From Candidatus Bathyarchaeum sp. (GTDB lineage Archaea; Thermoproteota; Bathyarchaeia; Bathyarchaeales; Bathyarchaeaceae): a DNA stretch of 57,756 nt. The position numbers and the translations under genes are program-made. Below are positions 21,977-26,395 of the stretch, piece by piece (the stretch's first letter is position 1; each line of letters begins with the position of its first letter). Where the stretch lies: contig JAFGGM010000054.1 in NCBI GenBank assembly GCA_016930555.1, forward strand, positions 1-57,756, written 5' to 3'. The notes under the pieces were generated by a model, which worked only from the letters and a program-made list of their open reading frames with translations, searched no databases and was not told the origin of the DNA.

Positions 21977-22450
21977 TTGAAGAGAACAGGGGTTACGAGT
22001 CTTCCGCTTCATTCTGGTAAAGCCCCGCGATGGCTTGTTTTCCGAATGCAGAAACTCGCTAACGAGATGGTTACCATAATGATTGACGAGTATGGCGTGG
22101 ACATGTTTCTTAGACGTGTCTCGGACCCATTCTGGTTTCAGGCCTTAGGTTGCGTCTTAGGGTATGACTGGCATTCGTCAGGAGTCACCACTGTTTTAAC
22201 AGGCATTCTGAAAACGGCAATAAACAAGAGGGAGCTGGGCGTGACTGTTTGCGGCGGCAAGGGCAAAACCTCCCGTAAAACTCCTGAAGAAATCGAATTC
22301 TTAGGAGAAAAGTACAGTTTTTCAGAAGACAAACTCGATAGATTACTGTATGCCAGCCGAATGAGCGCAAAGGTTGACAGCACTGCAATTCAGGCAGGTT
22401 ATCCTCTGTATCCAACCCATCTCACCGTGAACAACACGCCTCTACACTAG
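21977..22450 (+). pseudogene. DUF763 protein, 5' part, interrupted by integrated element
   Basis: MKRTGVTSLPLHSGKAPRWLVFRMQKLANEM...STAIQAGYPLY, then 12 element-derived residues. The rest of the protein resumes at attR. Confidence 0.9.
22392..22412. repeat. attL core direct repeat
   Basis: AGGCAGGTTATCCTCTGTATC, identical to attR. Confidence 0.93.
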
Positions 22451-22464
22451 AATACGCATGGCAC

Positions 22465-23304
22465 ATGAAGAAAAAAGGACTATCACAAGCAACAATCAAA
22501 ACAAGAACATACCTGTTGAGCAAGCTCATAAAACTAGGAGCAGACCTAAACAACCCTGATACCGTAGAAACAATAATAGCAACACATGACTGGAAAAACC
22601 CTTACAAAAAGAACTACGCCAACGCCTACAAAGCATACACCAACTACAAAAAAATACAATGGGAAAAACCAAAAATCACAATAACACAAAAAGAACCATT
22701 CCTACCAACAGACGAAGAAGTAAAACAGCTAATATCAGGAACATCAAAAACGGTCAGCACCCTAATCCAACTTTTATACGAAACAGGAATCAGAATCGGA
22801 GAAGCAAACGCGCTCCAATGGACTGACATAGATTTAAAATCCAATCAAATCAGAATCAATTGCCCAGAAAAAGGAAGCAACGCGCGAACCCTGAAAATCT
22901 CAGACACACTGACAACAATGCTTAACAAACTTACCCGAAGAAAAGACAATAACATCTTCAACCCAAGAACACGAACAATAAGCACAATATTCAGCAGACA
23001 AAGAAAAAGACTAGCCGAAAAACTGCAAAACCCTAGAATCAAACAAATCCACTTCCATACACTAAGACACCTAAAAGCAACAACAGAATACTACAAAACA
23101 AAAGACATCCTTCATGTAAAATACATTCTAGGACACAAAAGGCTAGACACTACACAAAGATACGCACACTACCAACCATTCCAAAAGGAAAAATACCACT
23201 GCAAAGTAGCCAAAACCCAAGAAGAAATCACAGACCTAATAGAAAACGGATTCGAATATGTAACCGAACAAGAAGGACTAAAATACTTCCGCAAAAGGAA
23301 GTAA
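22465..23304 (+). CDS. int: Tyrosine recombinase/integrase (C-terminal major part of a partitioned gene)
   Basis: Catalytic motifs ETGIRIGEANALQWTDI (R), HFHTLRHLKATTEYY (HxxR), YILGHKRLDTTQRYAHY (H...Y). The frame is open upstream to the att core. Confidence 0.92.
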   Translation: MKKKGLSQATIKTRTYLLSKLIKLGADLNNPDTVETIIATHDWKNPYKKNYANAYKAYTNYKKIQWEKPKITITQKEPFLPTDEEVKQLISGTSKTVSTLIQLLYETGIRIGEANALQWTDIDLKSNQIRINCPEKGSNARTLKISDTLTTMLNKLTRRKDNNIFNPRTRTISTIFSRQRKRLAEKLQNPRIKQIHFHTLRHLKATTEYYKTKDILHVKYILGHKRLDTTQRYAHYQPFQKEKYHCKVAKTQEEITDLIENGFEYVTEQEGLKYFRKRK

Positions 23305-23316
23305 AACCCTCTTTTT

Positions 23317-23499
23317 TTAACAATCAATAAACATTGAATCCCAACAATCTTTATGATACAACTTCCTAGAAAACTTACTACCTACACTAACAACAAAATC
23401 ACCAACATACAAAAACTTATCACACTTGTAACAAAAAACCTCACCATAAAGCACAAGGAATGTAGAATATCTAGCATCATCTAAGATATATTCAGGCAA
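23317..23499 (-). CDS. Small Cys/His protein of the element
   Basis: MPEYILDDARYSTFLVLYGEVFCYKCDKFLYVGDFVVSVGSKFSRKLYHKDCWDSMFIDC: CxxC...HxxC. Confidence 0.5.
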   Translation of the reverse strand: MPEYILDDARYSTFLVLYGEVFCYKCDKFLYVGDFVVSVGSKFSRKLYHKDCWDSMFIDC

Positions 23500-23620
23500 T
23501 CGCTAAACCTCCAAAAAAGAACGCTCGTCAGGCATCTTCGATGCCTTCCTCGAAAAAAAAGAAAAAAAAGAATAAAACCACTCCGAAAACGCCTCAAAAA
23601 AGGTTCTTTTTCAATCAAAT

Positions 23621-23866
23621 TTAACGAATCCCACGAACAACCCTTACAACCATCTTCTTCTTACAATCCCAAACACTACAACCCATGAAAATATCACGAA
23701 CATCAGTAATACTCAAATTCTTAGGAAAATAAGGACAAATCCACAAAATCTCACCAGTATTTCCATAATCAACAATCTTACACCCAACAAAATTTGAATC
23801 GTCAAAATGCTTACCATTAGGATACTTACAAAGCATGTTTTCTTTAAAAGGACACAAATCACCCAT
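23621..23866 (-). CDS. Small Cys-rich protein of the element
   Basis: MGDLCPFKENMLCKYPNGKHFDDSNFVGCKIVDYGNTGEILWICPYFPKN...; located downstream of rep on the same strand. Confidence 0.5.
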   Translation of the reverse strand: MGDLCPFKENMLCKYPNGKHFDDSNFVGCKIVDYGNTGEILWICPYFPKNLSITDVRDIFMGCSVWDCKKKMVVRVVRGIR

Positions 23867-23979
23867 CTTAATTTACCATCCTAAAGCCAAAGGAGAGGAG
23901 AGAGGACAGAGGTGAAAATCCTCCTCCTCCTAATCCCACAACCCAACCCTTACCCAAAACAAACATCTCTAAAAACAAA

Positions 23980-25356: not shown

Positions 25357-25488
25357 ACAATCACAATAGACAATACCAAACGTGCCTCAATACAAATGTA
25401 TCGAGTGATGTAAGAACAACTAACCACAATTGAAATATAAATAATTTGTGGACAAAAAAATTGCAAAAACAACATGAAACCATAAGTA

Positions 25489-25596
25489 GCAGGAGGGGCT
25501 GGGCAAAGTTCAGAGGTTTCACCCACTAGCGGGGTGAAAGTCGCGCCAATTCGCGCGACCAAGCCTCTCTGACTTTGCCAAGACACGCCCCCCTGC
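25489..25596. other. Branched inverted-repeat structure, candidate replication origin of the element
   Basis: Outer stem GCAGGAGGGG..GGCAAAGT.CAGAGG pairs with CCTCTCTGACTTTGCC...CCCCCCTGC and encloses two perfect hairpins: TTTCACCC-ACTAGCG-GGGTGAAA and GTCGCGC-CAATTC-GCGCGAC. Located upstream of rep. Confidence 0.6.
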
Positions 25597-25888
25597 ACCG
25601 CCCTTAACTCGAAAATCAAAGAAACTTCATATAAAAAACAACATTGACCACAGCAGAATCAACTAAAAAATTAATCAATCCGCAACAAAGTTATCAACAA
25701 AAGGAAGATACAACATTACCCTTTATGAAACCCAAAGGAAGATAAATAAACTTCCTAAAAACCAACACTGAAAATCAAAACCAACTGACTCACCTACAAA
25801 GTAGCCAATACGAACAAGACCACACCTCAAAAATTCCTAAAACGGATAATACGCCAACAAACAACAAAATATTAACATTAAAACACAA

Positions 25889-25916
25889 GCCAAAATCCTC
25901 TACCTGAGATTTTGGC
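25889..25916. repeat. Perfect 9-bp hairpin inside the element
   Basis: GCCAAAATC-CTCTACCTGA-GATTTTGGC. Confidence 0.6.
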
Positions 25917-25959
25917 GACAAAAATAATTACAAACAAAAAACAAAAACCCAAGTAATAG

Positions 25960-26014
25960 ACAAACGCCAACTACAAATAAAAAACAAACGCCAACTCCAA
26001 TTAGAGGAGTGGCG
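25960..26014. repeat. Iteron-like direct repeats plus hairpin
   Basis: ACAAACGCCAACT at 25960..25972 and 25984..25996, degenerate copy ACAAACGACAACT at 26231..26243; hairpin CGCCA(A)CTCC...GGAGTGGCG at 25989..26014. Confidence 0.5.
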
Positions 26015-26374
26015 TGTGTGTGACCCAATAGCAAACTCCTCTCTAAACTACAAAAGAGACAAACATCCATCAACAGCACAAAAAAATAAACCAGAACTAC
26101 AACAGAGTCTCAGAAAACTACTGGATAGCACCACCATCTACCAAAACAAATCCATATACAAGTCCAGAAACACAATAGAGCCTAAAAACAAAAAAAGCTC
26201 AAACAAACAAACAAGGCAACTCCAATAGAAACAAACGACAACTACAATAAAACCTAACGCAAACGAAATAAACGATAAATACGACAACAGCCCAAACAAA
26301 AAATAAGAAATGAAAGGGAGGAGGTGAAAAACAACGAGTAAAAAAGACAATAGTAAAAAATTACTTTGCCCCAT

Positions 26375-26395
26375 AGGCAGGTTATCCTCTGTATC
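26375..26395. repeat. attR core direct repeat
   Basis: AGGCAGGTTATCCTCTGTATC, identical to attL. Confidence 0.93.

Follow-up and report, generated by a model that had tools for sequence, protein, structure and literature searches.

A small segment inserted in the DUF763 gene of a Candidatus Bathyarchaeum genome, very probably an integrative rolling-circle plasmid

The window considered in the present work (the whole stretch of 57,756 nucleotides that was analysed), which comes from an archaeon of the genus Candidatus Bathyarchaeum, contains a 3,983-bp insertion located within a DUF763 gene and bounded by a 21-bp repeat. The inserted segment harbors the gene of a XerA-like integrase (int) on the + strand and, on the opposite strand, the gene of a zinc-finger HUH (Y1) replication initiator (rep); we are highly confident that it represents an integrative rolling-circle plasmid. 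A first-pass annotation had described either a minimal plasmid of this kind or an ssDNA-virus-like element, integrated in an archaeal chromosome. The integrated state and the archaeal host are borne out, and the plasmid is favoured over the viral reading, since no relative of the element has a recognisable capsid gene.

The two copies of the repeat, AGGCAGGTTATCCTCTGTATC, form a perfect direct repeat; they lie at positions 22392-22412 (attL core) and 26375-26395 (attR core, retrieved by the repeat search), 3,983 bp from start to start, which confirms at base level the module and the boundaries originally annotated. With up to one mismatch allowed, only these two copies are present in the 1.14-Mb assembly, which is fragmented (80 contigs, 84% complete); probing the window with up to three mismatches did not retrieve any further copy, and 100 shuffles gave none. 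As already remarked in the first-pass annotation, no capsid or conjugation gene is recognisable: the window ORFs searched include no capsid, spike or packaging gene, where highly divergent proteins could escape, and no relaxase, coupling protein or VirB4-type domain. The matches listed in a DNA search with the whole element concern mainly the integrase gene. An Rfam scan retrieved no match above threshold, and scans for sigma-70 promoters and terminators, whose models are not suited to archaea, remained at chance level.

The 5' half of DUF763 (21977-22391, + strand) matches positions 1-147 of PF05559 (E 8.5e-63), and its frame continues into the element up to position 22450; the 3' half (26396-27075, + strand) matches positions 154-319 (E 8.6e-53), with one stop inside the extended match. 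An in-frame TAG at 26374-26376 spans the border between the element and the repeat, directly before the first full codon of the latter. Once the flanks are joined over one copy of the repeat, a single stop-free ORF of 371 amino acids is obtained, sharing 57-79% identity with the intact DUF763 proteins of related genomes. The 21-bp core (attL copy) is identical in 14-18 of its 21 bases to the homologous codons of those uninterrupted genes, which are therefore natural unoccupied sites; the unoccupied alleles that had been anticipated are thus present in related genomes and align to the joined frame. The dN/dS of the joined gene versus its relatives is 0.07-0.09, within the range of the uninterrupted copies, suggesting that DUF763 was either split recently or is still under selection. 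The gene was not found in several of the related genomes searched and hence looks dispensable; no function is stated in the abstract of one paper in which it is named. In the window, DUF763 is preceded on the same strand by a pantoate-kinase-like gene and the pantetheine-phosphate adenylyltransferase gene (20492-21901), both related to coenzyme A, and the same order of the three genes is found in genome G404.

The integrase (22465-23304, + strand, 279 amino acids) belongs to the tyrosine type, as the first-pass annotation had it for the left end of the element (PF00589, E 2e-23). It also matches NF040815 with an E of 6e-30, under the cut-off of that model, and the structure 4a8e (phmmer, E 1e-12). 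In the alignment with Pyrococcus XerA, R110, H198, R201, H224, and Y233 coincide with conserved positions; judging from this comparison, the catalytic residues are intact. A suicidal integrase of the SSV type was rejected, because the int ORF is uninterrupted and the att repeat lies outside the gene. At the opposite end of the element, a motif containing AATTACTTTGCCCCAT (26353-26374, + strand) adjoins attR and is shared with relatives. In a comparison of eight elements (that of the window, WIN, and E21-E27) integrated at four different target sites, AAATTACT or a close variant was found at the int-distal end, separated from the att core by about 12-20 bp on the inner side; this motif is probably the sequence recognised by the integrase. 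Searching IMG/VR for the distal-end motif of the relatives gave no match.

The Rep ORF (23980-25356, - strand) codes for 458 amino acids, its true start being uncertain, and the conserved domain spans about residues 84-385. It contains the HUH motif H233-W-H235 (PHWH), a tyrosine (Y292) within a YxLxH motif (H296), and zinc clusters that include C143, C148, and C151, with an additional Cys insertion following the HUH motif. The alignment of 31 Reps revealed that C114, C143, C148, C151, H179, H217, H233, H235, Y292, and H296 are invariant; Y292 is taken to be the catalytic tyrosine. The earlier description of an HUH Rep with several zinc-finger motifs agrees with these data, given the PHWH motif, the several Cys clusters, and the invariance of the HUH motif in the relatives. 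The same annotation had also been unable to assign a named family; no family of Pfam, NCBIfam or PHROGs covers the protein, but the profile comparison with archaeal virus Reps, suggested there as a check, matched the RepA of SNJ1 (hhalign, E 4.5e-10, probability 96.7%, 171 columns), with zinc, HUH, and Tyr motifs in the same order. The core of the AlphaFold model has a pLDDT of about 85-95. Foldseek against viral models retrieved replication initiators with E from 2e-6 to 1e-3; most matches are unnamed, and the named ones are replication proteins. The fold search against the PDB gave nothing below E 0.1, the best HUH match being RepB of pMV158 (E 0.14, rank 4).

Between int and rep, the slot is occupied just by two small Cys-rich ORFs on the - strand, of 60 (23317-23499) and 81 (23621-23866) amino acids, the former without family matches and the latter without significant ones. 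Both ORFs exist as first annotated; their coding status is unproven, since relatives are not detectable. The non-coding stretch (25357-26374) is about 1.0 kb long, rather than the 0.9 kb first reported, and its structured nature resides in one highly significant cruciform, a branched stem with two inner hairpins at about 25485-25596. This region, some 130 nt upstream of rep, surpasses in stability every other 110-nt stretch of the element (-36.5 kcal/mol versus -20.5 in shuffles, z -5.7; z -6.3 for the + strand), and we infer that it represents a candidate double-strand origin. A conserved origin hairpin was sought in the relatives, some of which have stable hairpins near rep with no recognisable common sequence; for this reason, the origin role of the cruciform is put forward as a candidate one. 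The following region (25601-26374), lacking a conserved ORF, is rich in A and C on the + strand (GC skew -0.36, AT skew +0.55), and it would become the region upstream of int once the element is circular.

The composition of the two strands is extremely asymmetric. The Rep strand of the element is G+T-rich, with a GC skew of +0.375 and an AT skew of -0.402, whereas both skews stay within 0.14 in the 2.5-kb flanks and do not exceed, in absolute value, 0.12 (GC) and 0.17 (AT) in 459 windows of the same length elsewhere in the contig. The skew ends sharply at the repeats and is alike in int, in rep, and in the non-coding DNA; this, in turn, ties it to the strand and not to the coding direction. 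T makes up 77% of the four-fold sites of rep, and A makes up 68% of those of int, which runs the other way. Most relatives from Bathyarchaeia other than Bathyarchaeum have a skew of the same sign, the window element being the most extreme; the AT skews of phiX174 and M13 (-0.13 and -0.17) are far below it. The skew is weak or nil over the whole length of the Bathyarchaeum elements in tRNA genes, which have similar Reps, and it was not seen with the Reps of family f18 (see below); the asymmetry is thus not universal in the family. A natural reading would be the deamination of the Rep-coding strand, repeatedly exposed during rolling-circle replication; for a free circular form with a single-stranded intermediate, the asymmetry speaks only indirectly.

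According to these data, the following mechanism can be depicted. The XerA-like integrase would recombine the 21-bp attP core with its match in the conserved QAGYPLY codons of DUF763, splitting the gene, and the reverse reaction would make DUF763 whole again and free the element as a circle of 3,983 bp. On this circle, Rep, a zinc-finger HUH endonuclease whose active site has one tyrosine, would nick an origin, for which the cruciform that precedes rep by about 130 nt is the probable site, and the nick would drive a rolling-circle replication in which the Rep-coding strand is exposed as single-stranded DNA. In the integrated state, int lies directly behind the 5' half of DUF763, along the direction of host transcription; after circularisation, it would instead be preceded by the distal non-coding region of 0.8 kb. 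The data establish the boundaries, the empty and the occupied sites, the gene identities, the motifs and homology of Rep, and the strand asymmetry. The mobility of the element is strongly implied; its excision, nick site, displacement direction, promoter use, and transfer from cell to cell are what we infer.

A second occupied site was found in a sister species (genome G403). There, DUF763 begins after the neighbouring pantetheine-phosphate adenylyltransferase gene and, some 24 codons on, passes out of frame into an int sharing 76% DNA identity with that of the window; on another contig, DUF763 restarts at the identical att position, preceded by unrelated sequence. Compared with the window genome (G000), these junctions indicate that one attB was used in two species and that the G403 copy has decayed. 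In G403, DUF763 is a pseudogene (L094 968-1123 and L101 169-761), in which the 5' part is deleted into int, an attR stands at the site common to both species, and the 3' half is broken once more. Beside this DUF763 remnant, the two coenzyme A genes lie together. The dS between the two int genes is 0.87, near the 0.95-1.11 of host genes, and these values fit either one ancestral insertion or two separate ones.

This decayed copy at the same site reveals that such elements can die in place, and the host-like divergence of int would allow a single ancestral insertion; it might thus be supposed that the window element, too, is an old integration that has lost its activity. We consider this unlikely, since the repeats of the window are perfect, the skew breaks off abruptly at them, int and rep keep their full length and every catalytic residue, and the DUF763 halves are undamaged. 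The same occupancy of the site in both species, the same divergence, and the stop-free joined G000 gene with its low dN/dS might also suggest a regulated switch, that is, an element resident in DUF763 since before the split of G000 and G403, whose routine excision keeps the G000 gene functional. This appears quite unlikely: the data are fitted equally well by a separate insertion into this attB in each of the two species, that of G000 being recent, DUF763 is a pseudogene in G403, and the failure to find it in several related genomes speaks for a dispensable gene.

The Rep search gave matches in 26 out of 398 genomes of the phylum. Among named genomes, a first scan with the window Rep alone gave no match, and an alignment of closer Reps then retrieved 11 loci. 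Bathyarchaeum tardum is among the carriers of relatives (L065 and L066). Related Rep loci are many in Bathyarchaeia, and at least 13 of them are clear elements with both Int and Rep, bounded by repeats of 23-56 bp that lie 3.6-7.9 kb apart, mostly in tRNA genes. The targets comprise, besides DUF763, the genes for tRNA-Thr, tRNA-Ala, and tRNA-Arg and one shared non-tRNA site. Wherever both genes were found in an element, they lie on opposite strands. In E35, an element of 3.1 kb, rep is broken and int was not detected. Two adjacent ORFs make up rep in L033 (6098-7285) and L034 (5612-7036), split by an in-frame stop whose place, directly before the conserved WFGxxSY motif, is identical in the two genomes. 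In L025 (G087:C35), the tRNA-Thr att repeat occurs three times in a row (1313, 4879, and 8236), which suggests two elements integrated in tandem, the second without a detectable rep. Two genera share the non-tRNA att CTGGGACGGCGACATCATCCCCC (L026, 2544 and 8286; L027, 4097 and 8921); a similar sequence is present in L074. Moreover, homologous Reps lacking the extra Cys insertion were found in 15 genomes of about 1.4-1.9 Mb (family f18, L036-L049), which may be those of ammonia-oxidising archaea; the flanks of these Reps yielded nothing related to the window integrase.

The slot between int and rep often embeds further genes in the relatives: TIR proteins in L024 (5708-6355) and L069 (7237-7725), FRG and GmrSD_N in L030 (3571-5429), GmrSD_N together with an HNH and a DNA methylase in L034 (8039-10545), and a DpnII/MboI-type endonuclease in L033 (7570-8175). 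This cargo of TIR, FRG, GmrSD, and restriction-modification genes is predicted from the domain matches to serve antiviral defence.

It could also be proposed that a small virus, of the ssDNA or pleomorphic type, lies here as a provirus, in which the shared Int and Rep core is accompanied by virion proteins too divergent to be recognised. The extreme strand asymmetry, of the sort seen in replicons that pass through a single-stranded phase, the fold matches of Rep to viral replication initiators, and a small two-helix membrane protein adjoining the distal end of E22-E24 are in line with this proposal, which is nevertheless very unlikely. Besides int and rep, the window element fits just the two doubtful small ORFs, and the cargo ORFs searched in relatives of 3-8 kb gave defence-type families or no match, and no capsid. 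Furthermore, searches with the Rep sequence gave no relative in the INPHARED phages, in 2.9 million IMG/VR contigs or in PLSDB; hence, the free circular relatives of about 4 kb that the first-pass annotation had envisaged were not recovered from these collections. The short contigs L074 and L043 were considered as free circles and rejected, their ends having no overlap; in L074, a tRNA gene and other sequence also continue past the end of the element. Lastly, a plasmid joined to the chromosome by the assembly at a chance 21-bp match, which the fragmentation of the assembly might suggest, is scarcely credible, in that the repeat matches the expected DUF763 codons of intact genes, the same junction occurs in the independent genome G403, and relatives show the same layout at other sites.

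Bathyarchaeia are abundant but difficult to grow in culture, and their plasmids are, to our knowledge, little known. Taken as an integrative plasmid, the element brings with it a defined family: small integrative replicons whose att sites are exact, with an uncurated Rep and a cargo slot often filled with predicted defence genes. Rep, the origin candidate, the integrase, and attB are parts for a genetic tool in Bathyarchaeia, and the strand asymmetry offers a testable sequence signature of rolling-circle activity. A bolder scenario, which we regard as rather doubtful, is that of a distinct lineage of integrative rolling-circle elements of Bathyarchaeia that shuttles antiviral defence genes, the window copy being minimal and recently active, with an excision that reversibly switches DUF763 on and a one-strand-biased replication that rewrote the codon usage of both genes.

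The Rep subfamily is uncurated and the family is so far unnamed, whereas the integrative rolling-circle plasmid is already known as a kind of element. The closest likeness of Rep discussed here is with SNJ1 RepA, from a haloarchaeal virus (Simuloviridae), and with IS91-like HUH proteins, with which it shares the N-terminal zinc cluster, the PHxH motif, and a Tyr motif of the YxLSHCxI form. SNJ1 RepA is known to initiate rolling-circle replication as an HUH protein (PMC12642351); its homology to IS91 transposases is given by Wang et al. 2018, as cited in PMC6213432. The bathyarchaeal Rep differs in having, between its HUH and Tyr motifs, an additional Cys-rich insertion that the 16 aligned f18 sequences lack, and in being carried by a 4-kb element, whereas SNJ1 is a 16-kb virus with capsid genes. 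The alphapleolipovirus HRPV-1 (ORF1, PF07232-type) also has an HUH rolling-circle Rep in a small archaeal replicon; an assignment to this type was rejected, the profile match being restricted to the bare HUH motif.

NitAQ6f-E2, a thaumarchaeal cryptic integrated element whose Rep is described as a homologue of SNJ1 RepA (PMC6563490), is likewise integrated in an archaeon; here, the likeness of the Reps is one of description, and the host phylum differs. From the same work, 14 thaumarchaeal elements are located in protein-coding genes, in 3'-distal regions, unlike the window element, which splits its gene near the middle. The betapleolipovirus SNJ2, with its Rep-Arvir, resembles the window element in being an integrase-encoding archaeal element with a hairpin origin (PMC13107129); however, Rep-Arvir (DUF7845) has a Rep_trans fold and not an HUH one, and SNJ2 is a virus. 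The identity of the present Rep with Rep-Arvir (DUF7845, PF25227) was rejected, as no DUF7845 match was found. In SNJ2, the replication operon is restored solely upon circularisation (PMC13107129), and this restoration is a plausible parallel for what circularisation would do for int in the bathyarchaeal element.
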